DNA of 36,669 nt from Rhodospirillaceae bacterium (GTDB lineage Bacteria; Pseudomonadota; Alphaproteobacteria; SHVP01): positions 1-36,669 of the forward strand of contig NZXH01000047.1 in the NCBI GenBank assembly GCA_002701885.1, written 5' to 3'. Each line of letters begins with the position of its first letter. Position 1 is the stretch's first letter. The position numbers and the translations under genes were made by a program. The notes under the pieces are model-generated. The model made no database searches. It was not told the DNA's origin and saw nothing but the letters and a program-made list of their open reading frames with translations. Shown here one piece after another: positions 4,771-23,621 of this stretch.

Positions 4771-5559
4771 ATGAAAATTGCTACATGGAATATAAACAGT
4801 ATCAGAATAAGAATAGACCAAGTTATAAGGTTTTTATTAAAAGAAAAAATTGATATTTTGTGCCTTCAAGAGACCAAGGTTACTGATAATCTCTTTCCTT
4901 TTAAGACGTTCAAAGATAATGGTTATAATTTTATAAAAGTAAATGGTCAAAAACAGTATAATGGAGTTGCAATAATTTCTAGATTACCGATAACCAGATC
5001 ATATAAAAAAGATTTTTGTGAAAAAAAAGAAAAGCGTTATATTAGTATAACTTTAGAAAATAATATTGAAATTCATAATTTTTACTTCCCCGCAGGCGGT
5101 ATTGAACCTGATATAAAAAAGAATCCAAAATTTGAAGAAAAGCTAAATTTTTATTCGAAAGTAACAGATTGGTTTACAAAAAGAAACTCGAAAAAAAAAC
5201 AAATATTAGTTGGTGATATGAATATTGCTCCTAGCGAAAATGATGTTTGGTCTCATGAAAAACTAATTAATATTGTCAGTCACACACCTATCGAAATAAA
5301 GTATTTTGACAAATTAATCAAAAGTTTTGATTGGGTTGACGCAGTAAGATATTTTAATGGTGATAAAAAAAAAATTTTTTCTTGGTGGAGCTATAGAGTC
5401 ATCGAGTGGAAATTAGAAAATAAAGGCAGAAGATTAGATCATATATGGGTTGAAAAATCTTTAAGTAAAAAAATCCAGAACATTCAAGTATTAAAAAAAT
5501 TCAGAAACTATTCTCAGCCATCAGACCATGTACCGTTAATTTTAGACTTAGACATTTAA
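4771..5559 (+). CDS. xthA: Exodeoxyribonuclease III
   Basis: AP endonuclease/3'-5' exonuclease of the EEP (exonuclease-endonuclease-phosphatase) fold that repairs abasic sites and blocked 3' ends. All catalytic blocks are present in 262 aa: NINSIRIR (residues 8-14), LCLQETKV with metal-binding Glu34, GVAIISR, the VGDMNIAP block with Asp149 and Asn151, RRLDHIWV, and the terminal SDHVPL with Asp252-His253. Length and motif order fit the ExoA/XthA branch. It ends the leftmost plus-strand gene run, and its last 12 bases overlap the 3' end of the convergent methyltransferase gene. That leaves no room for a separate terminator. Confidence 0.95.
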   Translation: MKIATWNINSIRIRIDQVIRFLLKEKIDILCLQETKVTDNLFPFKTFKDNGYNFIKVNGQKQYNGVAIISRLPITRSYKKDFCEKKEKRYISITLENNIEIHNFYFPAGGIEPDIKKNPKFEEKLNFYSKVTDWFTKRNSKKKQILVGDMNIAPSENDVWSHEKLINIVSHTPIEIKYFDKLIKSFDWVDAVRYFNGDKKKIFSWWSYRVIEWKLENKGRRLDHIWVEKSLSKKIQNIQVLKKFRNYSQPSDHVPLILDLDI

Positions 5560-6039
5560 TTTATACATAAAATATCTTCCAATAGTAATGCCTTGGGGTA
5601 ACTGCAATTCTGTGAAAAATTTTGAACTTAAACTTTGATCTCCCACTACAAGTCCATTTACATCAATAATCTTGGAAAGAATTACAGAGAGAGATTCTGC
5701 TCTCTTTAAACTTTCATCTTCATTTCCTGAGCCAATATCAAAATGAGCTAAAATAATTGGAGCACTAACTTCCTTTTTAAATTTAAAAAGTGTGCTTTTA
5801 AAATCACCTTCGTATAAATATTTTTTAGGAGGAATACAGTCTGGATGCGCTTTAACACTCTTTTCAAAAACAAATACTTTTTTTTCTGGGAATATTTTTT
5901 TTATGTGATCATAGGTTCTTCCGTTCCCCAAACCTATTTCAAGAATTACACCTTGTAGATCACTAATTAATTCTGAAGCAAATTCTATACAAACTTTTTG
6001 AGACTGAAGGCGCCTTATAGCAGATTCAAGCCTACTCAT
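5548..6039 (-). CDS. Class I SAM-dependent methyltransferase-like protein (PF12692 type)
   Basis: Small (163 aa) Rossmann-fold protein. The SAM-binding motif I is LEIGLGNGRTYDHI (~33-46), followed by VFVFEKS (motif II acidic residue) and a PIILAHFDIGSGNEDES segment where the catalytic/adenine loop would lie. This resembles the short alphaproteobacterial methyltransferase family PF12692, whose substrate is unknown. The ATG at 6039 lies 9 bases after the stop of the upstream cNMP-binding gene, so it is the third gene of the ABC exporter operon. Its 3' end overlaps xthA by 12 bases on the opposite strand. Assignment to the methyltransferase fold is fairly secure; the function is unknown. Confidence 0.78.
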   Translation of the reverse strand: MSRLESAIRRLQSQKVCIEFASELISDLQGVILEIGLGNGRTYDHIKKIFPEKKVFVFEKSVKAHPDCIPPKKYLYEGDFKSTLFKFKKEVSAPIILAHFDIGSGNEDESLKRAESLSVILSKIIDVNGLVVGDQSLSSKFFTELQLPQGITIGRYFMYKLNV

Positions 6040-6048
6040 ATAAATAAA

Positions 6049-6501
6049 CTAATTATTACCAAGAGATTTAGCTAATTGAGCTGTTGTTTGTTCTAATCGC
6101 GCTGCTAGCTCTCTTAAAATTTGAACAGCCATTTGAGGAAATTCGCTAACTAGTCTAAAAAACAAATCTTTAGAAATTCTCAAAACAACTACATCGGAAG
6201 AAGCCCTAACTGTAGCTGTTCTCGGTACATCACATAGTATTGATATTTCTCCCACAATTTGATGTTTTCCAATTTGACTTACAGTCTTGGAATCTCCATT
6301 GGCCATTTCAATTATAATATCCGCTTCACCTTCAATAATTATAAAAGCTGCATCTCCAGGGTCACCTTGAACACACAAATCAAGTCCTTTGCGAAATGTC
6401 AACCTTTCACTTGTGAAAGCAAGTAATTTTAATTTTGCAGGTTCAATATTAGCAAATATAGGAACTTGTCGTAATAATTCTACTTCATCATTAAGGCTCA
6501 C
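6049..6501 (-). CDS. Stand-alone cyclic nucleotide-binding-domain protein
   Basis: 150 aa consisting essentially of one CRP-type cNMP-binding beta-roll and a C-terminal helix, with no DNA-binding HTH. The phosphate-binding cassette looks intact: GEISILCDVPRTATVRA (residues 84-100), with Glu85 and Arg94-Thr95 in the positions that hold the cyclic phosphate in CRP/PKA-type domains. The front of the roll is VQGDPGDAAFIIIEGEADI (~44-62). The start is GTG (6501-6499), supported by a strong AAGGAG seven bases upstream. That ribosome site overlaps the stop codon of the ABC exporter gene, pointing to coupled translation and a partner role. It may gate or regulate the exporter in response to a cyclic nucleotide, but this is inferred from position only. 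Confidence 0.9.
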   Translation of the reverse strand: MSLNDEVELLRQVPIFANIEPAKLKLLAFTSERLTFRKGLDLCVQGDPGDAAFIIIEGEADIIIEMANGDSKTVSQIGKHQIVGEISILCDVPRTATVRASSDVVVLRISKDLFFRLVSEFPQMAVQILRELAARLEQTTAQLAKSLGNN

Positions 6502-6508
6502 AAGATAT

Positions 6509-6514
6509 CTCCTT
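6509..6514 (-). promoter_or_regulatory. Shine-Dalgarno site for the cNMP-binding protein
   Basis: Minus-strand AAGGAG lies 7 bases before a GTG codon and overlaps the stop of the ABC exporter gene (6513-6515). Most genes here have weak ribosome sites, so this strong one both decides the GTG start and suggests re-initiation by ribosomes finishing the exporter. Confidence 0.8.
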
Positions 6515-9185
6515 ATTTATTCTTATCTTCAATTAGCTTAGCCAAACCATCACCAGAATTTAGCTCTTCAAAACTGCCGAATTTAATTATCTTACCTTTT
6601 TTCATAGCAATAGTTTTATCAAAATAAGAAGCTTGCGAAGTTGAAGGCACAATCCATAGCAGACAACGACCTTTCATTTCATTAACTAGTTTTTTCATTA
6701 TTGTTTCAACTATATTGCTCTCAATAGCAGACAATCCGTCAGATATTATCAATACGTCAGGATTTTTAATTATAGATCTCGCTAATATTAATTTTTGTCT
6801 TTGAGCCAAAGTTAATCTGGAGCCAGAAATTCCTACATTAAAGTCTAACCCTACACTTACAATAGCTTTCCTTAAACCAATTTGAGCAATCACATCAGCC
6901 AATATTTTTCCTACTCTATCAGCTGATTCTGCTTCACCGTAAGCTATTTTTCCAAATAGAATATTATCCTGAAGAGTTGCTCCAGTGATGTATTGATTTG
7001 AATTATAAAATTCAATATCTTTTTTCAAACTTTCTGGAAGTCCCTCTGAAAAAATTTTTCTTGCTTTAAGTATCTCTCCTTGAAATTCTTCAGTAACAAT
7101 ACCTAATCTGTGTCTTGCTGGAACAAGCAGAAAGGGAAGCCCAATTAACTTTGCCACTTCATCTTCTTTAAGCTGATCTAAATGCTCTTTACTTACCCTA
7201 CCCAATATAGCTTGGAAATCTGGCAACTCTTCAGAGGATATAAAACTAAATTGCTGAAAAAATTCATGGTCAGGAGGTAAATCAGCAAACAATTCTACCA
7301 TAGTTGCAGCTACTTGATAACCAGTATGAAGCATTTTATCTTTTAGACCTGCTTTATCAAGTACACTCATAACATAACTATGGTTTCCTAAATGATTCAT
7401 ATCAAACTCATCACTAGTTGGGTTTCCAAAAATTAAATTTTCTCCAACAGTTGCATTCGTATTGTAAGAATTAACTTCAAATGATTCTACCAGATTAGCC
7501 AAGTCCTTATCATTTGCTATTTTTTGAATAAAACTCTCTCTTGCCTGAAGAACAAGGTCAGTGGTTTGTTTCTTTGTATCTGGATCTATTGTACCTCTTA
7601 ATCCAAGTTGATAAACATCATCTGTAAGATCAGCAATTTCAAGCACTCTTAATGCCTGCTCAACAAGAGAATCATCATCAGTTGCCCCTGCAGCTGCATA
7701 ATCCGTCCATATAGCATTTGGGTCATCAGTTGAATTGCCTGATGCTACAGAGGTAGAAATTGTTGATTTGAATTCTTTTGCTTTTTCTGAATCAGGATTT
7801 TCTGATATTTGTTTATGCCTCAACCCATAGTAAAGATTGTCTGCCAAAGAAGAAGAAAAAACATATCCCCCTGAGCCAACGTAAGACATACGCCTTCCTG
7901 TTAAAGACTCAGGAGCTTGAGATATATCATTACCTCCCAAATTTATTGATCCAGAGGAAGGTTGAATAAGACGAGCTAAAAGCATTGCTAGATCTTCTCT
8001 TCCGCTACCTGGAATTCCAACTAAAGCAACTGATTCATTTAACGAAAATTTTATATTTGCCCCATCAACGATAGCAGTCTCTTGGTCATCATTTAAAATA
8101 ACATTTGTAAGTGATAAATCTCCAGATAATCCATTATCATCTTTTGGTTCTTCTGTTTGAGCAAGTTCGTCAATCATATCAACAGGCTCAAATTGAGAAA
8201 TCACTTGATCATATTTAATTTTTGAATCTGCTTGTTTTTGATAATAGCCTAATAACTCTTTCCATGGAGAAGCTAAATCTTTATGGGCGGCTATAGCGGC
8301 CATCAGAGTTCCTACTTCAAGCTCTCCTTTAATAACTAAATATCCTCCAATAGAATAAAAGAAAAACGGACCAAGTTGTTGAATAAAATTATTTACAAAT
8401 TTTATGAAAAATTTTTGTCTATAAATTTTGTATCTTACGTCAAATATTCCACTTAGTTGATATGAAAATTCTGCCCGCTCCCTTCTAGAAGTATCATGAA
8501 CATGCACTTCTTCTACACCTTGAACTGTTTCTCCAATCCTATCAGATAATGTTCTAACCCTTTTAACTCTTTCTTTTCCTAAAAGATTAACTTTCATTTG
8601 TAATTTAGGAATTAGGTAGAGTTGAATAGGATAAAGAGCTACAGCCGCTGCTGCCATGAAAGGGTTTTGGGCAAACAAAAAACCTAATATTACTAATAAT
8701 TGTCCACCTTGAAAAATAGGTTGAGCGAACGCATCTCCAATAAAACCACCAAGTGGCTCTACCTCAGCAGTAATCATGGGTATAATTTCACCTTGGGACA
8801 TATTTTTGAAAGTCCCTCTAGGAAATCTTAAAACACGACTGTAAAGGTCATATCTTAAGCGCCTTAACATTCTCTCACCAGTAAGGCCCTTGTATACATT
8901 TATGATATATTTAAAGGCTTGATTAATAACTACTAAAATTAAAAAGAGGATACATAAGATAATTAACCATTGTATATGGTCTACGGAAAAGCCAAGATTT
9001 AGGCCAAATAATTCTGCTTTTTGAGGAAAAGTTTCAGGGTCACCTTGAATAGCACCATTTATAATTTGCTTAGGTAACTCATAAAAAATGTAAAGAACGG
9101 GAAAGGAAAGTATGGCCATTAGAGTCAGCGTTACTTGCTGCCTACTACTAAACTTAAGAATATACTTAAATATGCTTTTTTCCAT
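6513..9185 (-). CDS. Atypical ABC exporter: membrane domain plus enlarged, degenerate nucleotide-binding domain
   Basis: 890 aa, against about 580-620 for a normal half-exporter. Residues ~15-325 form a type-I exporter membrane domain (hydrophobic segments near 20-37, 72-90, 160-195, 270-300) with the usual cytoplasmic coupling region. The nucleotide-binding domain starts near 355, but its catalytic residues are changed. Walker A is GIPGSGRED (390-398), with Arg396 where the Lys should be. The Q-loop region is YVGSGGYVF (435-443), with Ser for Gln. The signature is ISGSR (786-790). Walker B IISDG has Asp816 but Gly817 for the catalytic Glu, and no H-loop His is evident (IVPSTS ~845-850). About 290 extra residues separate Q-loop and signature; they echo the helical subdomain (ADNLYYG 448-454, GENLIFG 581-587, QDNILFG 739-745). 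It heads the minus-strand operon with the cNMP-binding and methyltransferase genes. The substrate is unknown; the divergent glycan genes hint at a glycan or lipid. Confidence 0.85.
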   Translation of the reverse strand: MEKSIFKYILKFSSRQQVTLTLMAILSFPVLYIFYELPKQIINGAIQGDPETFPQKAELFGLNLGFSVDHIQWLIILCILFLILVVINQAFKYIINVYKGLTGERMLRRLRYDLYSRVLRFPRGTFKNMSQGEIIPMITAEVEPLGGFIGDAFAQPIFQGGQLLVILGFLFAQNPFMAAAAVALYPIQLYLIPKLQMKVNLLGKERVKRVRTLSDRIGETVQGVEEVHVHDTSRRERAEFSYQLSGIFDVRYKIYRQKFFIKFVNNFIQQLGPFFFYSIGGYLVIKGELEVGTLMAAIAAHKDLASPWKELLGYYQKQADSKIKYDQVISQFEPVDMIDELAQTEEPKDDNGLSGDLSLTNVILNDDQETAIVDGANIKFSLNESVALVGIPGSGREDLAMLLARLIQPSSGSINLGGNDISQAPESLTGRRMSYVGSGGYVFSSSLADNLYYGLRHKQISENPDSEKAKEFKSTISTSVASGNSTDDPNAIWTDYAAAGATDDDSLVEQALRVLEIADLTDDVYQLGLRGTIDPDTKKQTTDLVLQARESFIQKIANDKDLANLVESFEVNSYNTNATVGENLIFGNPTSDEFDMNHLGNHSYVMSVLDKAGLKDKMLHTGYQVAATMVELFADLPPDHEFFQQFSFISSEELPDFQAILGRVSKEHLDQLKEDEVAKLIGLPFLLVPARHRLGIVTEEFQGEILKARKIFSEGLPESLKKDIEFYNSNQYITGATLQDNILFGKIAYGEAESADRVGKILADVIAQIGLRKAIVSVGLDFNVGISGSRLTLAQRQKLILARSIIKNPDVLIISDGLSAIESNIVETIMKKLVNEMKGRCLLWIVPSTSQASYFDKTIAMKKGKIIKFGSFEELNSGDGLAKLIEDKNK

Positions 9186-9319: not shown

Positions 9320-10573
9320 ATGATTAAAAAATTTGATAATTCTAAAATCTCTGGCTCAAGAGTTCTTATTTATAGTCATGATACCATGGGTCTTGGCCAT
9401 TTAAGACGAAGTAGAGCCATAGCAAATTCACTAGTAGAAAAATATGACGATTTATCAGTATTAATACTCTCTGGCTCTCCAATAATTGGTAGCTTTGATT
9501 TTAGCAATAGAGTTGATTATGTTAGAATTCCCGGTGTTATCAAATTAAAAGATGGAGAGTATACCACACTAAATCTAGCGATAGATATTGATGAAACTAT
9601 ATCTATGAGATCCTCAATCATAAAACATACTGCAGATATATTTGACCCTGATGTATTCATAGTAGATAAAGAACCAACCGGGCTGAGGGGGGAAGTTCTA
9701 GAGACTCTGAAGATGCTTAAAGAAAGAGGAAAACACCTTGTTTTAGGACTTAGAGATGTTCTTGACTCCTCCGCTGCGCTTGAACCTGAGTGGAAACGAA
9801 AAAATGTTTTGCCTGTCCTTCGAAAATTATACGACGAGATTTGGATTTATGGACTTCCTCAAATTTATGAGCCTCTGAATGATCTTCCATTACCTAAAAA
9901 AGTTTTAGATAAAATAACATATACTGGCTATCTCAGAAGATCCGTTAAGAATACATCTAACTCTATGGATAGGTTTTTTCCAGAAAAAGAACCTTATTTG
10001 TTAGTTACACCAGGAGGAGGAGGAGACGGAGAAGAATTAATCGAATGGGTACTAAGTGCTTATGAAAATGACCCTCTATTACCCTACGCAGCTTTATTTG
10101 TTCTTGGACCATTCATGCAACCAGAACTTCAAGAAGAATTTATGAAAAGATGTAAAAAAATGAAGAGGATCCATGTAATCACTTTTGATGTTCAGATGGA
10201 AGACTTAGAATCTAATGCTGCAGGTATAGTGGCTATGGGTGGCTACAATACATTTTGTGAAATTCTGTCTTTGGATAAAAGGGCAATTATTATTCCAAGA
10301 ACCTCACCAAGGTTTGAACAATATATTAGAGCCTCAAGAGCAGAAGAGTTAGGTCTTGTCAAAATGCTTGAAGATAACGGCAAACTTGACCCTTTATTAA
10401 TGGCTCAAGCATTAAAAGAAATGCCTAAGCAAAAAAAACCTTCTGAAATAATTGTACCTGGGCTTTTAGAAGGTTTAGAAAATGTAAATAGACTAGTTGA
10501 GCCATGGATAAGTAGAAAGAATGATAAAGAGATTAATTTACATAAAAATATTACACCACTTAAAAGAGCATAA
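9320..10573 (+). CDS. Glycosyltransferase, COG4671-like (GT-B fold), copy 1
   Basis: 417-aa soluble protein resembling the predicted glycosyltransferases of COG4671, related to the GT28/MurG C-terminal fold. Seen: an N-terminal strand VLIYSHD followed by the loop GLGHLRR (residues 24-30), the GxGH element of GT-B enzymes; a PYLLVTPGGGGDGEEL segment (~225-241) opening the C-terminal donor domain; and a GGYNTFCEIL motif (~310-319) in the place where MurG/UGT-type enzymes bind the nucleotide-sugar. No membrane segment is present. It is the first gene of a seven-gene plus-strand cluster, and a diverged second copy lies at 13540-14688. The ATG is preceded by an A-rich tract without a strong ribosome site. 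Donor and acceptor are unknown. Confidence 0.85.
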   Translation: MIKKFDNSKISGSRVLIYSHDTMGLGHLRRSRAIANSLVEKYDDLSVLILSGSPIIGSFDFSNRVDYVRIPGVIKLKDGEYTTLNLAIDIDETISMRSSIIKHTADIFDPDVFIVDKEPTGLRGEVLETLKMLKERGKHLVLGLRDVLDSSAALEPEWKRKNVLPVLRKLYDEIWIYGLPQIYEPLNDLPLPKKVLDKITYTGYLRRSVKNTSNSMDRFFPEKEPYLLVTPGGGGDGEELIEWVLSAYENDPLLPYAALFVLGPFMQPELQEEFMKRCKKMKRIHVITFDVQMEDLESNAAGIVAMGGYNTFCEILSLDKRAIIIPRTSPRFEQYIRASRAEELGLVKMLEDNGKLDPLLMAQALKEMPKQKKPSEIIVPGLLEGLENVNRLVEPWISRKNDKEINLHKNITPLKRA

Positions 10574-10583
10574 CTTATAAACT

Positions 10584-11798
10584 ATGCATGTGGCGTTTAT
10601 TTTAAAAGGGTACCCACGAATATCTGAAACTTTTATTGCCCAAGAAATTCTAGCCTTAGAACAAAAAGGTATTAATATATATATATTTTCTTTAAGAGGT
10701 CCGAGAGAAAAATTTACTCATCAAATTAATAAAAAAATAAAGGCAAAGGTATACTATATACCAGAATATATATATAAATCACCTTTAAAAATTTTTTTGT
10801 CATGGCTAAAAATAAGAAAACTTCCTGGATATAAAACTTCCCAAAGAGAGTGGTTTAAAGACTTAAAAAAGGATTTTACCCCAAACAGAATTAGAAGATT
10901 TGCACAAGCAATAGTTTTATCTAAAGAGTTACCTAGCTCTATTACACACCTGCATTCTCATTTTTTACATACACCTACATCAGTTACTTATTATGCATCA
11001 AAAATTTTGGGCAAACCTTACTCAATATCTGCTCATGCAAAAGACATATGGACAACAAAAAACTGGGAAAAAGAAAAAAAACTTAAAAATGCTTTATGGA
11101 CAACCACCTGCACAAAGCAAAACCAAGAACATTTATTAGCTTTATCTCCGAAGTCAAATATAAACCTAATTTATCATGGAATTGATTTTGACCGCTTTCC
11201 ACCTCCTCATGAAGAAGAACCAATAAAAAAAGATTTAAAAGAAAATTCACCATTTATTATATTATCAATTGGCAGGTTGGTAGAAAAAAAAGGTTTTGAT
11301 ATTCTATTAAAAGCTCTATCCTTACTACCTAATGAAATAAATTGGAAATTAGAACATATTGGTAATGGTCCATTAAGTAAAGAATTGAAAACTCTCTCAA
11401 GAAGGCTAGGTTTACAGAAAAAAATAAATTGGAATGGAACTTTAACACAAGAAAATATTTCAAAATTTTATCAAGTAGCTGATATTTTTGTTTTAGCATC
11501 TAAAATAACAAACTCAGGAGATAGAGACGGGATTCCAAATGTTCTTATGGAAGCACAATCACAAGGAATTGCGTGTATAAGCACAAAACTCCCGAGCATA
11601 GAGGAATTAATTATAAATAATGTTTCTGGTATTTTAGTTGAAAGTGGCTCAATATTTAAGCTTAAAGAAGCTATGATTAACTTAATCATGCACCCTGACA
11701 TAAGAAAAAAAATAGGTTATGCTGGCCAAACTAGGGTAAAAGAAAATTTTTCAATGCACGTTGGTATTGAAAAACTTTCAAAGCTTTTTTTAAGTTAA
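10584..11798 (+). CDS. Glycosyltransferase family 4 (WcaL-like)
   Basis: 404-aa GT-B retaining glycosyltransferase. The N-terminal signature FILKGYPRISETFIAQEILAL (read as two parts, residues 5-13 and 14-25) is typical of the colanic-acid WcaL/AmsK subgroup, as is the SAHAKDIW acceptor-domain motif (~149-156). The donor domain begins at ILSIGRLVEKKGFDILLKAL (~225-244). The nucleotide-sugar loop is DGIPNVLMEAQSQGI, which keeps the second Glu of the EX7E motif; the first position is Asp. It begins 10 bases after the previous stop and ends 7 bases before the next gene, so it is one operon. The likely role is adding a sugar to a lipid-linked or surface glycan on the cytoplasmic face. Confidence 0.9.
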   Translation: MHVAFILKGYPRISETFIAQEILALEQKGINIYIFSLRGPREKFTHQINKKIKAKVYYIPEYIYKSPLKIFLSWLKIRKLPGYKTSQREWFKDLKKDFTPNRIRRFAQAIVLSKELPSSITHLHSHFLHTPTSVTYYASKILGKPYSISAHAKDIWTTKNWEKEKKLKNALWTTTCTKQNQEHLLALSPKSNINLIYHGIDFDRFPPPHEEEPIKKDLKENSPFIILSIGRLVEKKGFDILLKALSLLPNEINWKLEHIGNGPLSKELKTLSRRLGLQKKINWNGTLTQENISKFYQVADIFVLASKITNSGDRDGIPNVLMEAQSQGIACISTKLPSIEELIINNVSGILVESGSIFKLKEAMINLIMHPDIRKKIGYAGQTRVKENFSMHVGIEKLSKLFLS

Positions 11799-11805
11799 AT
11801 ACATT

Positions 11806-12954
11806 ATGAAAATAGCATTTTATTCTCCTCTAAAACCATATGACCATAAAGTAATTTCAGGAGATAGAAACATTGCCAAATCCTTGATTAAATTATTCGA
11901 AAGTTTAGGGCATGAGGTAATTATTCCATCCAAATTTAGAAGCTATGCTAAAAATTCAGAGGCACAACACTCTATATACGAAAAATCATCTAAAGAAATA
12001 TCTATGATTTTAGATGAATTTGACAACAAGGTCCCTGATCTATGGTTTACTTATCATAGTTATTATAAAGCACCAGATTATTTTGGACCTTTAATAAGTA
12101 AAAAGCTATCTGTACCATATATTATTCTAGAAGCATCTTACGCAAAAAAAAGAAGTATAGGGGAATGGAAAATTGGTAGCAGAGAAGCTTTTAAATCAAT
12201 TACCTCTGCTAACGCTATAATTAATTTTACAAACAGAGATTTTGAAGAGATAAATAAAATTATTAGGCATAAAAGCCAAAATTATATTTTACCGCCTTTT
12301 CCAGATACATCTATATTTTATAAAAAAGATTTGGATAAAAATATTTTTAAGAAAAATTTTTCCTCTAAGTTTAGTATTCCAGAAAGTGCTCCTTGGGTGT
12401 TAACCGTTGGGATGATGAGGGATGATGATTCGAAACTAGCATCATATGAAATACTTTCAAAATCAATGAATTTATTAAATCAAGATTACTATCTTTTAGT
12501 GGTTGGAGACGGCCCAAAAAAAACATATGTAAAAAAATTATTGAAAGAAGCAATAAATGAAAAAGTATTTTTTCTTGGAGAAATGAAACCTATAGACCTT
12601 GCTAATTTATATAACTGTTGTGATATATTTGCTTGGCCAGGTGTAAATGAAGCTTTTGGATTATCTTATCTAGAAGCCCAAGCATGTGGCTTGCCTGTAG
12701 TAGCAGGAAACTCTGGTGGTGTTTCAGAAGTAATAAATAAAACTAAATCTGGGTTTTTGGTAGATATTACTGATAAAAACCCACAAAATTTTAGTAATGC
12801 TTTAGAGAAACTAATTACTGACTCGAACCTTAGGTATAATATGAGTATTGCAGCTGAAAATTTTATTAACAGAGATAGAACTTTAGAAACTACGGCTGAA
12901 AAACTTAATAATATTTTATATATGGTATTAAATAATTATAAAAATTTAAATTAA
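11806..12954 (+). CDS. Glycosyltransferase family 4
   Basis: 382-aa GT-B enzyme. The acceptor domain starts MKIAFYSPLKPYDHKVISGDR (motif residues 1-20 only). The donor domain contains VLTVGMMRDDDSKLASYEIL, VVGDGPKK, LGEMKPIDLANLYNCCDIF, and a complete EX7E motif in NEAFGLSYLEAQACGLPVVA, followed by GGVSEVI. The subgroup resembles sugar transferases acting on lipid-linked oligosaccharides, but substrate specificity cannot be read from sequence. Its stop codon shares one base with the start of the histidine phosphatase gene (TAATG), indicating translational coupling within the glycan operon. Confidence 0.9.
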   Translation: MKIAFYSPLKPYDHKVISGDRNIAKSLIKLFESLGHEVIIPSKFRSYAKNSEAQHSIYEKSSKEISMILDEFDNKVPDLWFTYHSYYKAPDYFGPLISKKLSVPYIILEASYAKKRSIGEWKIGSREAFKSITSANAIINFTNRDFEEINKIIRHKSQNYILPPFPDTSIFYKKDLDKNIFKKNFSSKFSIPESAPWVLTVGMMRDDDSKLASYEILSKSMNLLNQDYYLLVVGDGPKKTYVKKLLKEAINEKVFFLGEMKPIDLANLYNCCDIFAWPGVNEAFGLSYLEAQACGLPVVAGNSGGVSEVINKTKSGFLVDITDKNPQNFSNALEKLITDSNLRYNMSIAAENFINRDRTLETTAEKLNNILYMVLNNYKNLN

Positions 12955-13529
12955 TGAAAAATATAGTATTCATAAGACACGCTGAAACAGAATGGAATTT
13001 AATGGGACTTATTCAAGGCCACACAGACATTCCTATTTGTAAAGAAGGTGAATCAAATGCTAAAAAGTGGAAGATTAATTTAAAAGATTATACTCTTTGG
13101 TCAAGTCCATTACAAAGAGCAACCAGAACTGCAGAGATAGTTTTTTCAAAAAAACCAAAAATTGAAAATGCATTAATTGAAATGAATTGGGGTGACTGGG
13201 AAGGAAAAAAGCTATCTGAATTAAGGAATAAATTGGGTAAAAAAATGAAAATAAATGAAAACCTTGGGCTAGATATGAGGCCAGTAAATGGGGAAACACC
13301 TAGAGAAGTACAAGGTAGAGTTTCTAGTTGGCTATTATCTATATATAATTTAGGAAATAATCATGTTTGTGTTACCCATAAAGGTGTTATACGTTCTGTA
13401 ATTGCTCTATCTACCGACTGGGAAATGAAAGGGAAGATACCAATTAAAATAGAAGATGGTAAAGCATATAGTTTTAATTTTAGTAACAAAAAAAAATTAA
13501 CTTATTCATCTACAATATCAATGATTTGA
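12954..13529 (+). CDS. Histidine phosphatase family protein (phosphoglycerate mutase-like)
   Basis: 191 aa of the branch-1 histidine phosphatase superfamily. The catalytic RHAETEWN motif is intact (Arg8, His9 the phospho-acceptor). Arg55 lies in SSPLQRATRTAEI, Glu76 in IEMNWGDWEGKK, and the second catalytic His142 in VTHKGVIRS. GLIQGHTDIPI matches the cofactor-independent phosphatase-like (GpmB/CobC/SixA-type) members. Located inside a glycosyltransferase operon with a 1-base overlap at its start, it more probably removes phosphate from a sugar phosphate or glycan intermediate than serves glycolysis. That is inference from context. Confidence 0.9.
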   Translation: MKNIVFIRHAETEWNLMGLIQGHTDIPICKEGESNAKKWKINLKDYTLWSSPLQRATRTAEIVFSKKPKIENALIEMNWGDWEGKKLSELRNKLGKKMKINENLGLDMRPVNGETPREVQGRVSSWLLSIYNLGNNHVCVTHKGVIRSVIALSTDWEMKGKIPIKIEDGKAYSFNFSNKKKLTYSSTISMI

Positions 13530-13539
13530 AATAACAAAC

Positions 13540-14688
13540 ATGCATAAAAGAGTTTTATTTTATGTCCAACACCTTCTTGGAATAGGACATTTAAAAAGAG
13601 TTTCAATAATTGTAAAACAAATGTCTTTAAAGGGTTTAGATGTAACAGTTATTTCCGGTGGAAACAGAGTAGATAGTATAGATTTTGGAAAAGCTTCTTT
13701 TATACAACTTCCCTCCGCAAAAGCAAAAGACTCCAATTTTTCAACTTTAATTGATGAAAATGGAAATACAATTAACGATATTTGGAAAAAAAATAGAAGA
13801 GAACTAGTTCTAAATGTATTTCAAAAATTAGAACCACATATATTAATAACTGAAATGTTTCCCTTTGGAAGAAATCAAATGAAATTTGAACTTTTACCTC
13901 TTTTAGAGGAAGCAAACAATAGTAATGTAACAATAATTTCTTCCATAAGAGATATAATTGTAAGCGATATAAAAAAAACAAAGGTGGAGCAGCGTAATTT
14001 TCTACTCACAAAATACTATAAATATATACTTGTGCATGGAGAAGAGAAATATTATTCAATAGGGAAAAATCTTGGTTTAGATAAACTCAATATAAAAAAA
14101 ATATATTATACTGGTTATGTTTGTAATCAAAAAAACAATAAAAATTCACTACCAAGATACAAAAAAGAAATTCTAGTTTCTGCTGGGGGAGGAGCTGTAG
14201 GAAAGAAGATTATTGTAAATGCTATTAAGGCTTCTTCACTTTTTTTTGATCAAGACTTTACTTGGAGGATATTAATAGGACTTAATGAAAATGATCAAAA
14301 CAAAAAAGAATATTCCAAACTGGCACATCAAACAGGAAAGAAAATAATAATTGAATATTTTACGGAAAATTTTAATATACTTCTCTCCAATTGCTTAGTT
14401 TCTATTAGCCAAGCAGGATATAATACTTTCTTAGAAGCGATTTCTTGCAAAGTAAAGTCTATATTTATTCCATATGCTGAAGACATTAAAAGCGATCAAA
14501 TAATCAGAGCTAGATCTTTTAGCTCACTTAACTTTATTAAATATATAGACGAAAAAGACTTAAATCCGTCTAAAATAAAAGATAGCATAATTGAACTAAT
14601 GAAACAGGAGGATAGAGAGTTTAATTTACCAAATTTTGATGGTGCTGAAAATACATATAAATTTATTAATGGCCTTACTAATGAGTAA
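13540..14688 (+). CDS. Glycosyltransferase, COG4671-like (GT-B fold), copy 2
   Basis: 382-aa diverged relative of the first gene of the cluster. It has the same opening (VLFYVQHLLGIGHLKR, with GIGHLKR at 14-20), the same order of elements, a shorter Gly patch (VSAGGGAVGKK) at the start of the donor domain, and SQAGYNTFLEAI corresponding to the GGYNTFCEIL loop of copy 1, followed by a conserved DQIIRARSF tail. No membrane segment is visible. The GIGH loop and the donor loop are both retained, so it should be active, perhaps on the next acceptor in the same glycan. Its last 8 bases overlap the preferred start of the deacetylase gene. Confidence 0.82.
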   Translation: MHKRVLFYVQHLLGIGHLKRVSIIVKQMSLKGLDVTVISGGNRVDSIDFGKASFIQLPSAKAKDSNFSTLIDENGNTINDIWKKNRRELVLNVFQKLEPHILITEMFPFGRNQMKFELLPLLEEANNSNVTIISSIRDIIVSDIKKTKVEQRNFLLTKYYKYILVHGEEKYYSIGKNLGLDKLNIKKIYYTGYVCNQKNNKNSLPRYKKEILVSAGGGAVGKKIIVNAIKASSLFFDQDFTWRILIGLNENDQNKKEYSKLAHQTGKKIIIEYFTENFNILLSNCLVSISQAGYNTFLEAISCKVKSIFIPYAEDIKSDQIIRARSFSSLNFIKYIDEKDLNPSKIKDSIIELMKQEDREFNLPNFDGAENTYKFINGLTNE

Positions 14689-15959: not shown

Positions 15960-17813
15960 ATGGATAATATACTTTTAGTTAACGACCTTCATGTTGAATT
16001 TAATGCCCCTGAGGGTTTAATTAAAGCTGTAAAAGGGGTCTCTTTTAAAATTCCAACAGGGAAAACTATAGCAATAGTGGGAGAATCAGGTTCAGGAAAA
16101 TCAGTAATTTCTCAATCTATTATGGGTATCTTACCCAAAAATGGTTCAGTAGCTCAGGGTCAAATAAAATTCTATGACCCTAAAAACTCTTTCAAAGAAA
16201 CAATGATTACATCTATAAAAAATAATAGCCCTGAAATGAGAAAGGTTAGAGGGTCTGGAATATCAATAATTTTTCAGGAACCAATGACCTCATTGTCCCC
16301 TTTGCATACCATTGGAAATCAAATCGCTGAAGGTTTTCTTTTACATAATAAGGTTGGTAATAATGAAGCAAGGGAGGCAACTGTTGAAATATTAAAATTA
16401 GTAGGATTTCCAAACCCTTCAAAATCAATAGATATATATCCGTTTGAATTATCTGGTGGTTTAAGGCAAAGAGCAATGATTGCAATGGCTATGATCTGCA
16501 GACCAGCTCTTTTAATAGCAGATGAACCCACCACAGCTTTAGATGTAACCGTTCAGGCGCAAATTTTAAAATTAATGAAAGACCTTCAATCGAACTTAGA
16601 AATGGCCATACTTATGATAACCCATGATTTAGGGGTTGTAGCAAATATGGCAGATGAAATAATTGTTATGTACCATGGGGAAATTATGGAATATGGAAGC
16701 CTAAAGGATATATTTCATGATCCTCAACACCCATACCTTAAGTCTTTATTAAAAGCTGTTCCTAGATTTGGCATGGGACCAAATGAAAGGCTAATTCCTA
16801 TTAGAGAAATCAATTCCAAAATTTCTACTTTGGGTTCAGAGATAAATTTAGAAACAGGTAACAAAGTAGTCCTTGAAGTTAAAAACTTAAGTAAAACATT
16901 TACAACAAGAAAAAAATCATTTCTTAGTAATTCTTCCCAAAACGCAATTAAAGCTATTGATGATGTTAGCTTTGATGTGCCTAGAGGAGAATGTGTAGGT
17001 TTAGTAGGCGAATCAGGTTGTGGAAAAACTACCACTAGCAAAATTATAATGGGCGCACTTAAGCCAGACACAGGAGAAATAATTTTCAATACTAGTAAAA
17101 GCAAAATAGATGTATTAAAAATAAGACAGAGAAAAGAAGTCTTATATTTTAGAAAAAGTTCGCAATATATTTTTCAAGACCCCTTTAGTTCTTTAAACCC
17201 AAGAATGACGGTTTTTGACATTATAAATGAGCCATTGATTATACATAATTTAGGCTCGGAGGAAGATAGACTCAATAAAGTAAAATCACTAATTGAAATG
17301 GTAGGTCTTCCAATTACTTCATTAAGAAGATATCCCCATAGCTTTTCTGGAGGGCAAAGACAACGGATTGGCATTGCAAGAGCCTTAGCATTAGAACCTG
17401 AGTTTCTAATTTGCGACGAACCAGTTTCAGCTTTAGACGTTTCAATTCAAGCTCAAGTTCTTAATCTGCTTAAAGATCTTAAACGGGATCTAGGTTTAAC
17501 CTATCTATTTATTTCCCACAATTTAGCTGTAATTGATTATATTTCAGATTATATTATTGTTATGTGTGCAGGCAAAATCGTTGAAAAAGCACCCAAAGAT
17601 GATTTTTTCAATAATGCACAACACCCCTATACAAAAGCGCTTTTAGGTGCAGTGCCTGAACCTAATCCAAATAAAAAGTTAAATTTTCAAAACCTAATGG
17701 ATGGAAAAGCTTCAATCCCATCTGAGTGGCCAGAAAAATATGTAATAAACGAAAAATTTTCACCTACAATGAATGAAATTGGAAATAACCACTGGGTGTT
17801 ATCAAATGTTTAA
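15960..17813 (+). CDS. ABC importer ATPase, fused double NBD (DppD-DppF/YejF type)
   Basis: 617-aa fusion of two nucleotide-binding domains that power an oligopeptide-family (OppDF-like) importer. NBD1: Walker A GESGSGKS (~41-48), signature LSGGLRQR, Walker B LLIADEPTTALD (~184-195), and the D-loop/H-loop THDLGVV. NBD2: GESGCGKTT (~350-358), FSGGQRQR (~460), LICDEPVSALD (~484), SHNLAVI. Both catalytic sets are complete, in contrast to the exporter at 6513-9185. The C-terminal oligopeptide-transporter extension (AQHPYTKALLGAVPEP) occurs after each half in the usual form. The ATG at 15960 follows an AAAGAG tract. The 3' end overlaps the binding-protein gene by 8 bases, so the four importer genes form one operon. 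Confidence 0.95.
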   Translation: MDNILLVNDLHVEFNAPEGLIKAVKGVSFKIPTGKTIAIVGESGSGKSVISQSIMGILPKNGSVAQGQIKFYDPKNSFKETMITSIKNNSPEMRKVRGSGISIIFQEPMTSLSPLHTIGNQIAEGFLLHNKVGNNEAREATVEILKLVGFPNPSKSIDIYPFELSGGLRQRAMIAMAMICRPALLIADEPTTALDVTVQAQILKLMKDLQSNLEMAILMITHDLGVVANMADEIIVMYHGEIMEYGSLKDIFHDPQHPYLKSLLKAVPRFGMGPNERLIPIREINSKISTLGSEINLETGNKVVLEVKNLSKTFTTRKKSFLSNSSQNAIKAIDDVSFDVPRGECVGLVGESGCGKTTTSKIIMGALKPDTGEIIFNTSKSKIDVLKIRQRKEVLYFRKSSQYIFQDPFSSLNPRMTVFDIINEPLIIHNLGSEEDRLNKVKSLIEMVGLPITSLRRYPHSFSGGQRQRIGIARALALEPEFLICDEPVSALDVSIQAQVLNLLKDLKRDLGLTYLFISHNLAVIDYISDYIIVMCAGKIVEKAPKDDFFNNAQHPYTKALLGAVPEPNPNKKLNFQNLMDGKASIPSEWPEKYVINEKFSPTMNEIGNNHWVLSNV

Positions 17814-19740
17814 TTATCAAGAAAGTAAACATTCAAATTTATTCAAACCTGAAAGTATCATTATATTTTTAGTAATAATGACTTTATTTACAATTATTCC
17901 AATGAAACTGTATGCGGAAAAGTATATAGAATCTGAATACTTTATCCAGAAAGTACAGAATAATACTTTGCCTTCTATTGAAAATCGTATTCCAAAAAAA
18001 CCTAGATTAATTAATGTCGAAGAACCTGGAAAATATGGTGGAGAGATCAGAATGTTCATTGGGCGTACTAAAGATATTCGCCTTATGGTAGTATACGGAT
18101 ACTCTAGGTTAGTAGGGTATAATATAAATAGGGATCTAGTTCCTGATATACTTGAAAAGTTTGAAATTATAGACAATAAAAAATTTACTTTTTATTTAAG
18201 GAAAGGACATAAATGGTCTGATGGAACTGAGTTTACTTCAGAGGATTTCAGGTATTGGTGGCAAGACGTAGCAAATAATGAAAAATTATCTCCCTCTGGA
18301 CCACCCAATGATATGATTCAAGATAACGAAGCTCCAGAATTCAAGGTTATTGATAAATACACAGTTCAATACGAGTGGAAAAAACCCAAAACATCTTTTT
18401 TAAATCGTTTAGCTAGCGCCTCTCCTTTATTTATATATCGACCAGCACATTATTTGAAACAATTTCATATAAAGTATACGCCTGAAGAAGATATTAAAAA
18501 AAACAATAAAAGTAAAAGGAACTGGGCAGCTATACATAACAAAAAAGATAACTTATATAAATTTGACAACCCAGACCTTCCTACTCTTCAGCCTTGGTTT
18601 AATTCAACCAGTCCACCTGCAACAAGATATATATTTAAAAAAAATCCATACTTTCATAGGGTGGATCAAAATGGAAGACAACTGCCTTACTTAAATCAAG
18701 TGAGGTTTTCTCAAGTTTCAGCTTCGTTGATAGCAGCTAAAGCCGGTGCAGGTGAGTCTGATTTACAAGCCAGAAATTTAAGCCTAAAAAGTTTTCCCTT
18801 TTTAAAAAAGAATGAAATTAAACTCGGGGACAACTCAAAGTATAAAACATATCTTTGGAAGGGTGCTAAAGGGTCTCACATAGCACTTTTTCCAAATCTA
18901 AATATTAATAACGAAATTCTAAAAGAGTTATTTAGGGATGTTAGGTTTAGAAGGGCATTATCATTAAGTATTGATAGAGAGTTAATCAATGAAGCATTAT
19001 ATTTTGGTCTTGCTTCAGAAAGTAATAATACTGTTTTAAAAGAAAGTGAACTATTTAAGGAAAAATATAAAACTTCTTGGACTCAGTATGATATTGATAA
19101 AGCAAATGACCTACTAGATAAAATAGGAACAATTAATAAGGGTAGTGATGGTTTCCGCGTAATGAAGAATGGGAAAAGACTAGAAATAATTGTTGAAACC
19201 TCTGGGGAAAGCGAAGAAGAAACTGATGTTTTAGAATTAATAAAAGAAAGCTGGGAAGAAATTGGTATAAAGTTATTTTCAAAACCATCACAAAGAGATG
19301 TTCTGAGAAATAGAATTTTTTCTGGTGAAACAATGATGGCGGTCTGGTCAGGTCTAGAAAACGGCATTCCAACTAGGAATTTTGAACCGAGAGAATTGGC
19401 TGTTACTTCTCAACAACAATTTCAATGGCCAAAGTGGGGTCAATATGTTGAAACAAGAGGGTTGTCGGGAGAAAAAGCAGATTTGAAAGAAGTTATAATG
19501 CTTAATGATTTACTAGTTAAATGGCAAAATACATCGGAACAAAATTTAAGAAAGAAAATATGGCAAGATATGCTCGATATTCATGCTGATCAAGTCTACA
19601 CTATTGGAATAGTTTCTGGAGTAAAACAGCCAGTTGTAGTAAGAAAAAACCTCAAAAATGTTCCTAAAAATGGAATTTATAATTGGGACCCAGGGGCACA
19701 TTTTGGTATCTACATGCCCGACACATTTTGGTTAGAATAA
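17806..19740 (+). CDS. Extracellular solute-binding protein family 5 (large type)
   Basis: Periplasmic substrate receptor of the importer. From the ATG at 17806 it is 644 aa, with a Lys/His-containing N-region, a hydrophobic core (residues 18-33) and a probable cleavage site after LYA (37). An upstream in-frame ATG at 17773 would hide the signal peptide behind 11 extra residues and extend the overlap with the ATPase, so I reject it. Family-5 features: LVPDILEKFEI, LRKGHKWSDGTEFTSEDFRYWW, YRPAHYLKQFH, FKKNPYFHRVD, and DVRFRRALSLSIDRELIN. The length exceeds DppA/OppA (about 535 aa) and resembles the large binding proteins that in several bacteria import oligosaccharides or modified peptides. 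The ligand cannot be deduced. Confidence 0.92.
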   Translation: MFNYQESKHSNLFKPESIIIFLVIMTLFTIIPMKLYAEKYIESEYFIQKVQNNTLPSIENRIPKKPRLINVEEPGKYGGEIRMFIGRTKDIRLMVVYGYSRLVGYNINRDLVPDILEKFEIIDNKKFTFYLRKGHKWSDGTEFTSEDFRYWWQDVANNEKLSPSGPPNDMIQDNEAPEFKVIDKYTVQYEWKKPKTSFLNRLASASPLFIYRPAHYLKQFHIKYTPEEDIKKNNKSKRNWAAIHNKKDNLYKFDNPDLPTLQPWFNSTSPPATRYIFKKNPYFHRVDQNGRQLPYLNQVRFSQVSASLIAAKAGAGESDLQARNLSLKSFPFLKKNEIKLGDNSKYKTYLWKGAKGSHIALFPNLNINNEILKELFRDVRFRRALSLSIDRELINEALYFGLASESNNTVLKESELFKEKYKTSWTQYDIDKANDLLDKIGTINKGSDGFRVMKNGKRLEIIVETSGESEEETDVLELIKESWEEIGIKLFSKPSQRDVLRNRIFSGETMMAVWSGLENGIPTRNFEPRELAVTSQQQFQWPKWGQYVETRGLSGEKADLKEVIMLNDLLVKWQNTSEQNLRKKIWQDMLDIHADQVYTIGIVSGVKQPVVVRKNLKNVPKNGIYNWDPGAHFGIYMPDTFWLE

Positions 19741-19758
19741 TTAAGGGTTATAAAGCTA

Positions 19759-20784
19759 ATGTTCAATTATCTAATTCAAAGAATGTTTGTTATGATACCT
19801 ACTCTACTGGTAATTAGTTTTCTTATATTTGTAATAATCCAACTTCCTCCAGGGGATTATTTATCTAATCAACTTCTAGAACTTCAATCTCAAGGTGATT
19901 CAGCCGCTGCAGAACGAATAGCTTTTTTAAGAGAACAGTACGGTCTTGATAAGCCCTTTATACAACAATATGGAATCTGGTTAGGAGTCTTACCTGGTAA
20001 TGAAGGTTTCTCTGGACTTCTTCAGGGAGATTTTGGTCAATCTTTCGAGTTTGATATGCCAGTAAGTGAAGTAATCGGTGATAAAATATGGCTATCAATA
20101 ATTGTTTCTTTCGCTACAATAATTTTTACCTGGGTTGTTTCTTTTCCAATCGGTGTTTATTCAGCAACTCATCAATATAGTGTAGGTGATCATTCACTTA
20201 CACTAATTGGCTTCTTGGGTCTTGCGACCCCTAATTTTCTTTTAGCTTTAGTTTTACTATATTTTGCAAACGTATGGTTTGGAACTGAAATTGGCGGGTT
20301 AATGGATGAAAAATATCTCGATCAGCCCTGGTCATTTGATAAATTTATGTCTGTGTTAGAGCATTTATGGGTCCCAGTTGTGGTTATTGGAACATCTGGA
20401 ACAGCTGGTATGATAAGAAGGTTACGGGCCAACCTTTTAGACGAGCTCCAAAAACAATATGTTACTACTGCTAAAGCAAAAGGACTACATGACTTCAAAA
20501 CTTTACTAAAATACCCTTTAAGAATGTCATTAAACCCTTTCATAGCAGATATAGGAAATCTTTTACCTCAAGTTGTTTCTGGAGCAGCAATAGTATCTGT
20601 GGTTCTATCGTTACCAACAACTGGACCTATGCTTCTACAAGCACTCCAGTCACAAGATCAATATTTGGCTGGATCTTTTCTCATGGGACTAGCCCTTTTA
20701 ACTGTTGTAGGAATGTTTCTCTCAGACTTAGCATTAGCAGCTCTGGACCCAAGAATAAGGTTAGGTGAAAGTGCATCAAAATGA
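19759..20784 (+). CDS. ABC importer permease, DppB/OppB type
   Basis: 341-aa inner-membrane permease with six predicted helices, starting FNYLIQRMFVMIPTLLVISFLIFVIIQLPPGDY, the usual OppB opening (shown only as a landmark; key residues PPGD at ~31-34). A long first periplasmic region carries FLREQYGLDKPFIQQYG. The cytoplasmic EAA loop reads RANLLDELQKQYVTTAKAKG, followed by the LLKYPLR element that contacts the ATPase. An AAGGGT ribosome-site-like tract lies about 12 bases before the ATG. The stop overlaps the next permease start in an ATGA motif, showing strict coupling of the two channel halves. Confidence 0.95.
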   Translation: MFNYLIQRMFVMIPTLLVISFLIFVIIQLPPGDYLSNQLLELQSQGDSAAAERIAFLREQYGLDKPFIQQYGIWLGVLPGNEGFSGLLQGDFGQSFEFDMPVSEVIGDKIWLSIIVSFATIIFTWVVSFPIGVYSATHQYSVGDHSLTLIGFLGLATPNFLLALVLLYFANVWFGTEIGGLMDEKYLDQPWSFDKFMSVLEHLWVPVVVIGTSGTAGMIRRLRANLLDELQKQYVTTAKAKGLHDFKTLLKYPLRMSLNPFIADIGNLLPQVVSGAAIVSVVLSLPTTGPMLLQALQSQDQYLAGSFLMGLALLTVVGMFLSDLALAALDPRIRLGESASK

Positions 20785-21950
20785 CAAATACAAATAAAAA
20801 CGAAATGAGAGAACATTATGTAAATAAAAAACCTTTTGACCCTCAATCAATTGAGAAAATGAGTGCATCTCAAGAAAAGTTTTTTATGGCATCACAATGG
20901 AAAATGATGTGGTGGAAATTACTAAGACATAAACTGGCAGTTTATTCTGGATGCATACTTTTATTTTTATACTTTTCTATTTTAATTAGTGAATTTTTAG
21001 CCCCTTATGCTCTAGACTCTAGAGATAGGAGAAATATTTTTGCTCCTCCCCAATCCATAAATTTATTTCATGAAGGTGAATTTATTGGCCCCTTTGTTTA
21101 CGGTTACAAAAAAGTTTTAAATACCGAAACATTAGAAAGGGAGTATACAATAAGTAAAAATAAAATATATAAAATTAGATTTTTATGTAGTGGAGATAAG
21201 TACAAATTTTGGGGAATGATTAATTCGAGTTTTCACTTATTTTGTCCTTCCAAAAAAGGTTACCTTTATATATTAGGTACCGATCGTCTTGGAAGAGATA
21301 TGCTATCTAGAATAATCTATGGAACTAGAATTTCTTTAACAGTTGGGCTAATAGGAATAACCATAAGTTTTTTTCTTGGAATAACATTAGGGGGTCTTGC
21401 CGGATATTTTGGCGGTTGGGTTGATAGTTTAGTGCAAAGAAGCATAGAAATTATTAGATCATTTCCAGAACTACCCCTTTGGATGGCTTTATCAGCGGCA
21501 CTACCAGCTACTTGGAGCCCCATATTAATTTATTTGGGAATAACAATAATCTTGGGTTTGATAGACTGGACAGGATTAGCAAGAGCAGTAAGGTCTAAAT
21601 TATTATCCTTAAGAGAAGAAGATTTTGCTACTGCGGCTGTTCTTATGGGGGCAAGTCCAAAAAGAGTCATAGCAAGGCATTTATTACCATCATTTATGAG
21701 TCATCTAATTGCTTCAGCAACTTTGTCAATACCGGCAATGATACTTGGTGAAACTGCTTTATCATTTTTAGGTTTAGGCTTAAGACCCCCTATAACTAGT
21801 TGGGGAGTTCTATTAAACGAAGCGCAAAATATCAACGCTGTAGCACTACATCCTTGGTTAATATTCCCAGTAGCTCCAGTAATAATAACTGTCTTAGCCT
21901 TAAATTTTTTTGGTGATGGACTTAGAGATGCAGCAGACCCATATAAATAA
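20781..21950 (+). CDS. ABC importer permease, DppC/OppC type with enlarged periplasmic segment
   Basis: 389 aa, longer than typical DppC (about 300). After a cytoplasmic N-tail and the first helix (~52-72), roughly 85 extra residues precede the LGTDRLGRDMLSRIIYGTRISL motif (part of the family's second block). They include GPFVYGYKK and KFWGMINSSFHLFCPSKKGY, which probably form an extra periplasmic subdomain against the binding protein. The remaining helices and the EAA loop (SLREEDFATAAVLMGASPKR, then HLLPSF) are standard. It overlaps the upstream permease by 4 bases and ends one base from the convergent methyltransferase gene. The insertion is of a kind known with large family-5 binding proteins, so it supports an unusual or bulky ligand. 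Confidence 0.93.
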   Translation: MTNTNKNEMREHYVNKKPFDPQSIEKMSASQEKFFMASQWKMMWWKLLRHKLAVYSGCILLFLYFSILISEFLAPYALDSRDRRNIFAPPQSINLFHEGEFIGPFVYGYKKVLNTETLEREYTISKNKIYKIRFLCSGDKYKFWGMINSSFHLFCPSKKGYLYILGTDRLGRDMLSRIIYGTRISLTVGLIGITISFFLGITLGGLAGYFGGWVDSLVQRSIEIIRSFPELPLWMALSAALPATWSPILIYLGITIILGLIDWTGLARAVRSKLLSLREEDFATAAVLMGASPKRVIARHLLPSFMSHLIASATLSIPAMILGETALSFLGLGLRPPITSWGVLLNEAQNINAVALHPWLIFPVAPVIITVLALNFFGDGLRDAADPYK

Positions 21951-22787: not shown

Positions 22788-23621
22788 CTACAGAACTATC
22801 TTTAAACCTTCTCTAGCTACTAAAGTACCTGGCCTTTTTGTTTCTGCTTCAATAGAAATTTTATCCATAAAAGAGTCCTCATGACTCGGATCATGATGAA
22901 AAATACATAGTCTCTCTGCCTCAGCCAAGTCACATAATTTAGCACCTTCTTCCCATGTAGAATGACCCCAGTGCTGTCTATCTTTGAACTCTTCTTCCGT
23001 AAACATTGAATCATAAATAACAATATTAGCCCCTTCAATGAGTCTAAGAATATTTTTATCTGGTTCACCAGGAATATGATTTGTATCAGTAATATAACAG
23101 ATAGACTTATCATAAAAATTTATCCTGTATCCAGTTGCTCCATTTTCATGATTAAGGGGGCATGTTTTTATTTGTATATCATCTGAAAAAACTAGATTTT
23201 CACCAGCAAAAAAATCTGTAAAATTCATACTACAGGGAAAAATATCTAAACCAACAGGCCAAACTGGCTCTTTCATAATGCTAGACAATACATTTTTTAT
23301 ATTATTTTTTGGTTTTAAGTGACCTGAAAAAAATTCAATTTTATTTTTTTGATTAAATGCAGGAGAAAAAAATGGCAATCCACAGATATGATCATAGTGA
23401 GTATGCGAAAAAAAAATTCTGAAATTGTTAATATCTTCTTTAACTAGTTCATTCCCTAAATACCTTATACCTGTACCAGAATCGAAAATAAAAACTTCAT
23501 TTCCACACCTTATTTCCACGCATGATGTGTTGCCACCATATTTTGCCACCTTAGGGTCACTACAGGCAATACTGCCCCGGACTCCCCAAAACTTTACAAA
23601 AAATTTATTATTCTTCTTCAA
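22788..23621 (-). CDS. MBL-fold metallohydrolase
   Basis: 277-aa metallo-beta-lactamase-fold protein of the PhnP/RNase-Z-like group (COG1235-like). It begins VKFWGVRGSIACSDP and YGGNTSCVEI, a characteristic opening. The metal motif HTHYDH is at residues 73-78, further ligands lie in CPLNHENGATG and ITDTNH, and the terminal His patch is CIFHHDPSHED. The start is TTG at 23621, preceded by a GGTAGGG-like purine tract; no ATG lies near the conserved N-terminus. The family includes phosphodiesterases and ribonuclease-like enzymes, so I leave the activity open. It is followed 14 bases later by the methyltransferase gene, and the regulator gene lies upstream on the same strand with a 41-base gap. 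Confidence 0.88.
   Translation of the reverse strand: MKKNNKFFVKFWGVRGSIACSDPKVAKYGGNTSCVEIRCGNEVFIFDSGTGIRYLGNELVKEDINNFRIFFSHTHYDHICGLPFFSPAFNQKNKIEFFSGHLKPKNNIKNVLSSIMKEPVWPVGLDIFPCSMNFTDFFAGENLVFSDDIQIKTCPLNHENGATGYRINFYDKSICYITDTNHIPGEPDKNILRLIEGANIVIYDSMFTEEEFKDRQHWGHSTWEEGAKLCDLAEAERLCIFHHDPSHEDSFMDKISIEAETKRPGTLVAREGLKIVL

Follow-up and report, generated by a model that had tools for sequence, protein, structure and literature searches.

The 890-aa ABC-exporter-like protein encoded in the window (the whole stretch of 36,669 nucleotides analyzed here) belongs to a widespread and undescribed family of Alphaproteobacteria, which has the fold and ancestry of known exporters. Its nucleotide-binding domain (NBD) carries an internal repeat and a degenerate ATP site, and a gene for a cyclic-nucleotide-binding (cNMP) protein lies next to it. 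Tentatively, with confidence a little short of even, we read the family as descendants of an ABC exporter that became pseudo-ATPases linked to cyclic nucleotides and would serve a glycan or glycolipid pathway. The architecture is established by direct observation of homology, internal repeats, loss of motifs, and linkage and fusion of genes, while the mechanism is what we propose from them. A conserved ATPase is the defining feature of ABC transporters; if our reading is true, the family is a natural experiment in regulating or running an ABC fold without its standard engine. In the searchable literature, which lies mostly outside subscription journals, nothing was found on the 890-aa protein or on its repeat architecture.

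The features discussed are collected in Table 1. The exporter transmembrane-domain fold is present in the 890-aa protein, as indicated by PF00664 and by sequence and Foldseek matches to exporters. The top PDB matches are type IV ABC exporters (MsbA, Sav1866, TmrAB and P-glycoprotein), which are alike in the transmembrane domain and in the N-terminal part of the NBD. The best match of PF00005 (ABC ATPase) is only partial, covering residues 374-478, and among the best 25 NCBIfam models listed none was above its cut-off, the best being MsbA_lipidA (176.9 bits against a cut-off of 602). Existing annotations call family members no more than ABC transporter proteins. Within the window genome the protein is the sole one of its kind, the remaining matches being ordinary ABC proteins with 16-32% identity. 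Relatives with 46-90% identity were found on more than 20 contigs, and a query made only of the NBD insert detected the family in 98 of the 289 alphaproteobacterial genomes sampled, down to 21-25% identity and nearly always with one copy per genome. Every aligned member has the insert. In the phylum-level sample, matches occurred only in the Alphaproteobacteria, to which all genomes listed there belong. Since the insert is kept in these 98 genomes, usually in single copy, it is neither an assembly error nor the mark of a decaying gene; long open homologues in many families also rule out an assembly artefact, a frameshift or a decaying gene. One genome (G154) has two paralogues, and one member of 1340 aa (L075:1485-5507) has a long N-terminal extension and an adjoining cyclase-like gene.

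Table 1. Features of the ABC-exporter-like protein, its gene neighbourhood and its NBD-less relatives (positions are those of the window unless a locus is named)
Feature	Residues	Position	Strand	Remarks
ABC-exporter-like gene		6513..9185	(-)	890 aa; full-length relatives exist
Transmembrane domain	1-335	8181..9185	(-)	Slice used for the tree; PF00664 match at residues 41-298, E 1.3e-25
Degenerate Walker A, GIPGSGRE	390-397	7995..8018	(-)	
Repeat copy 1	432-532	7590..7892	(-)	Q-loop strand, SSLADNLYYG, VLEIADLTDD helix
Module with repeat copy 2	530-632	7290..7598	(-)	LxAR helix, strand, ATVGENLIFG, VLDKAGLKDK helix
Unique helical insert of copy 2	633-688	7122..7289	(-)	Near-invariant FADLPPDHEFFQQFSFI at its start
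Module with repeat copy 3	689-785	6831..7121	(-)	LxAR helix, strand, ATLQDNILFG, VIAQIGLRKA helix
Degenerate signature, RLTLAQRQ	790-797	6795..6818	(-)	
Degenerate Walker B, VLIISD	811-816	6738..6755	(-)	Asp replaced by Ser815
H-switch position	847	6645..6647	(-)	Pro847 instead of His
Cyclic-nucleotide-binding protein		6049..6501	(-)	150 aa; directly downstream of the ABC gene; PF00027, E 3.9e-20
Methyltransf_17 protein		5548..6039	(-)	Next after the cNMP gene; conservation frequent, not universal
Divergent glycosyltransferase cluster		9320..14688	(+)	GT28-like, GT4, GT4, histidine phosphatase, GT28-like
Opp-type importer genes		15960..21950	(+)	ATPase, binding protein, two permeases; also in rhizobial clusters
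NBD-less loci		L116:5773-7077, L117:5773-7077, L118:4770-6032, L119:4779-5981, L120:5001-5975		

The original prediction placed the signature about 350 residues after the Q-loop, and the measured distance is indeed about 353 residues (from position 438 to 790-795), against about 56 in a canonical exporter of the window genome. Compared with type IV ABC exporters, the family has about 290 extra residues in this interval, with repeats. The motif said to recur three times is found exactly where it was claimed, as SSLADNLYYG (445-454), ATVGENLIFG (578-587) and ATLQDNILFG (736-745). The single window sequence makes the repeat only partly visible, the similarity being reached by none of 500 shuffles for R2-R3, by 5 for R1-R3 and by 134 for R1-R2. 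With profiles from an alignment of 69 members (slices R1 432-562, R2 557-724 and R3 719-840) the predicted self-alignment is clear: hhalign gave 97.6% for R2-R3 (P 2.8e-12), 91.9% for R1-R2 (P 6.9e-7) and 69.9% for R1-R3 (P 4e-5), unrelated slices within the same protein gave less than 1%, and none of 200 column-shuffled profiles reached the observed score for any of the three pairs. A high score of R1 with the slice 350-445 arose only because 14 residues are common to both. Alignment of residues 530-632 with 689-790 gave 99.0% (P 5.9e-18, 84 columns), and both modules consist of an LxAR helix, a strand, a YNxxATxxxNxLFG loop and a VLxxxGLxD helix. These comparisons indicate that a module of about 90 residues is duplicated within the NBD and that about 60 residues, comprising the Q-loop strand, the NxxFG loop and the GLxD helix, recur three times. 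R1 and R2 also matched the canonical NBD (96.5% and 79%, respectively, both with 0/200 shuffles), and the repeated part is evidently homologous to the first half of the canonical NBD helical subdomain. R2 lies nearest to R3, scoring 74 with it against 35 with canonical exporters, and a FDxxxYN motif is common to copies 2 and 3 and absent from copy 1 and from canonical NBDs, which suggests that copy 2 arose through duplication inside this protein itself.

The VLxxxGLxD helix expected after each motif is present and is significant alone in all three pairs (0/100 shuffles each). The stretch taken for a repeated signature helix fared differently. This LxAR helix is common to copies 1 and 2 (0/100 shuffles) but does not significantly match the true signature helix: similarity to the signature helix in copy 3 was at chance level (31/100 and 14/100 shuffles for copies 1 and 2), and similarity to the signature helix of canonical exporters was near chance (3/100 and 11/100). 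Three signature helices are thus not supported. The repetition behind the proposed tandem helical subdomains is real and family-wide, but three complete subdomains are not supported, given the signature helix, the insert of copy 2 and the missing fold match; the data support a repeated half-subdomain together with a new helical insert. This insert showed no known domain and no meaningful relatives among PDB folds, PDB sequences, Pfam and viral folds. In the AlphaFold model of the whole protein, blocks in residues 350-880 mostly have pLDDT values of 80-95, and a strand, a loop, a short helix and then more helices are found in all three copies. The modelling proposed to count subdomains thereby recovered a similar order of strands and helices in the three copies, but not a recognizable fold for copy 2: modelled alone it reached a pLDDT of 93 and a pTM of 0.88, and the predicted domain had no significant Foldseek match among solved structures, NBDs included (best E 2.9).

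The ATP site departs from the canonical one throughout, a point that the original prediction did not raise. In the window protein the Walker A consensus GxxGxGK[ST] is broken, the Q-loop Gln is replaced by Ser438, the signature reads LTLAQ instead of LSGGQ, the Asp-Glu pair of Walker B is replaced by Ser815 and Asp816, the latter at the catalytic Glu, and the H-switch His is missing. The same elements (Walker A, Q-loop, signature, Walker B and H-switch) are non-canonical in the family, unlike in type IV ABC exporters. Among the 69 members, Walker A Lys is kept in 31 and Ser/Thr in 5, the Q-loop Gln in 12, the second Gly of the signature in 5, the Walker B Asp in 5, the Glu in 39 and the His in 19, whereas each canonical residue is kept in 31/31 canonical exporters treated in the same way. 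Magnesium is normally bound by the Walker A Ser/Thr and the Walker B Asp; each of these is absent from 93% of members, and none of the 69 has all six core residues together. About half of the members, including that of the window, have Arg in place of the Walker A Lys. In the most diverged ones (L063, L064 and L065) the glycine frame of Walker A is lost and a cNMP domain is fused to the protein. The NBD is best read, from these residues, as a pseudo-ATPase with family-wide loss of Mg-ATP-binding and catalytic residues. K, Q, E and H all survive in some members, and one (L016) keeps five of the six core residues, so ATP binding or slow hydrolysis may persist in some of them, especially outside the branch of the window. 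The commonest combination (43/69) pairs an acid at the Walker A Ser/Thr with Ser/Asn at the Walker B Asp, and could mark a rewired site or a dead one. This swap, at residues 397 and 815 (window 7995-7997 and 6741-6743), might represent a relocated metal ligand.

A cNMP-binding gene adjoins nearly all family members, and in 8 relatives the ABC protein itself carries the cNMP domain, fused at its C-terminus. Because of this fusion in eight members, there is good evidence that the two proteins act together. The cNMP protein of the window matches TIGR03896 below the cut-off and contains the Gly-Glu and the Arg of the phosphate-binding cassette (GEISILCDVPRTA), which are kept in most relatives; the cassette of the partner (GEIAILCDVPRTA) is well conserved. 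The cyclic-nucleotide site is thus retained as the ATP site decays. Class III cyclase genes are found within the rhizobial clusters and beside two other members, and the window genome, on its other contigs, encodes eight cyclase domains of this class. Where a locus is long enough to include the glycosyltransferase cluster, its gene order is mostly the same. The neighbourhoods in Rhizobium leguminosarum, Mesorhizobium and Sinorhizobium meliloti contain adenylate/guanylate cyclase, Opp-type, glycosyltransferase, ABC and cNMP genes. The importer genes of the S. meliloti ABC/cNMP cluster are, we take it from their numbering, smb20141/smb20142. These form a Dpp-like system (PMC2651895).

When plasmids were searched by tblastn, proteins turned up that stop short of any NBD and have 41% identity to the window protein over its residues 1-348. 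Those of Roseobacteraceae plasmids have copper-oxidase, copper-binding and cytochrome c genes as neighbours, and a Defluviicoccus plasmid also encodes such a protein. The Roseobacteraceae proteins ('ABC transporter transmembrane domain-containing proteins') resemble the family over these residues and differ from it in the complete absence of the NBD and in their copper-oxidase and cytochrome c neighbours. In a tree of the transmembrane domain, the NBD-less proteins and the degenerate family were separated from canonical exporters with full support. Only 1% of bootstrap trees showed the degenerate family as a clade, and nearly all nested the NBD-less proteins inside it; the AU test (p 0.186) did not reject a sister position, and the nesting is therefore not significant. 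Transmembrane domains of this lineage thus exist without an NBD in the same gene, and in another context. These relatives, mostly in copper operons, may have a different function.

In the reading that we prefer, a type IV ABC exporter would have given rise to a protein whose NBD became a pseudo-ATPase, its helical region being enlarged and built in part from repeats. Its transmembrane domain would move or flip a glycan or glycolipid made by the adjoining glycosyltransferases, and the enlarged NBD would act chiefly as a structural platform, where the cyclic-nucleotide sensor docks and gating takes place. Binding of cAMP or cGMP by the partner would then set the transporter on or off, in place of the ordinary cycle of ATP hydrolysis; a second messenger may thus switch the degenerate ABC protein instead of the usual powering. 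We consider unlikely, though worth stating, a more far-reaching version, a cyclic-nucleotide-gated former exporter that would have abandoned hydrolysis at both sites, had its NBD rebuilt by tandem duplication as a dock for the cNMP sensor, come to gate glycan or glycolipid movement by a second messenger, and left some descendants free of the NBD. Canonical ATP-site residues are also lost in CFTR, TAP1/2, TM287/288 and CydDC. In those proteins one consensus site stays in the dimer. The degenerate family, in contrast, has no visible partner gene, and a homodimer would have both sites degenerate. NHLM/bacteriocin-type systems likewise link an ABC exporter to a cNMP-binding domain or partner; the fused degenerate members differ in carrying the cNMP domain C-terminally, and we know of no NHLM/bacteriocin-type exporter that is degenerate or bears repeats.

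The main rival is an exporter that still consumes ATP under cyclic-nucleotide regulation, with a rewired site in which the metal ligand is relocated, hydrolysis is slow and the cNMP protein is only a regulator. This is a serious possibility, if a rather doubtful one. It would account for the acid and Ser/Asn combination (43/69), for the Glu and Lys kept in 39 and 31 members, and for the member with five of the six core residues. It agrees poorly with the change of Lys to Arg in about half of the family, the window protein included, with the loss of the Q-loop Gln, the second signature Gly and the His in most members, and with the disappearance of the glycine frame in the most diverged ones. 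Alternatively, the protein may be one half of a heterodimer whose partner, encoded elsewhere, supplies the intact ATP site. Degenerate half-transporters with active partners are well known, and the window genome has canonical exporters, but no second exporter half was found beside the ABC gene in the loci examined and the family is usually single-copy, which makes this arrangement improbable.

It is similarly improbable that the protein is no longer a transporter and acts as a membrane-bound cyclic-nucleotide sensor or scaffold for the glycosyltransferases, with the exporter fold as its anchor. Decay of the ATP site, the fused cNMP domain, the conserved glycosyltransferase neighbours and the NBD-less relatives would all fit such a role, yet the transmembrane domain has invariant columns and ranks with the well-conserved regions, which exceeds the needs of an anchor. 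Least credible of all is the idea that the motifs resemble each other by chance and that the insert is an unrelated lineage-specific domain. The similarity of R1 and R2 is invisible in the single sequence (134/500 shuffles) and copy 2 has no fold match, as this idea would have it, but the profile shuffles (0/200 for every pair) rule out chance similarity of the motifs, and the two modules align at 99.0% (P 5.9e-18).

The pseudo-ATPase, cyclic-nucleotide-linked reading points to an uncharacterised glycan pathway in Alphaproteobacteria, possibly controlled by a second messenger. Because the family occurs in the tractable rhizobia Rhizobium leguminosarum and Sinorhizobium meliloti, the idea is open to direct test. 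A metallo-beta-lactamase-fold protein is encoded in the window (22788-23621, (-) strand) and at a Mesorhizobium locus (L115:15204-16058, (+) strand), the two being 42% identical. It weakly matches class II cAMP phosphodiesterases (E 6.8e-4), and may serve the ABC/cNMP system by removing its cyclic nucleotide.
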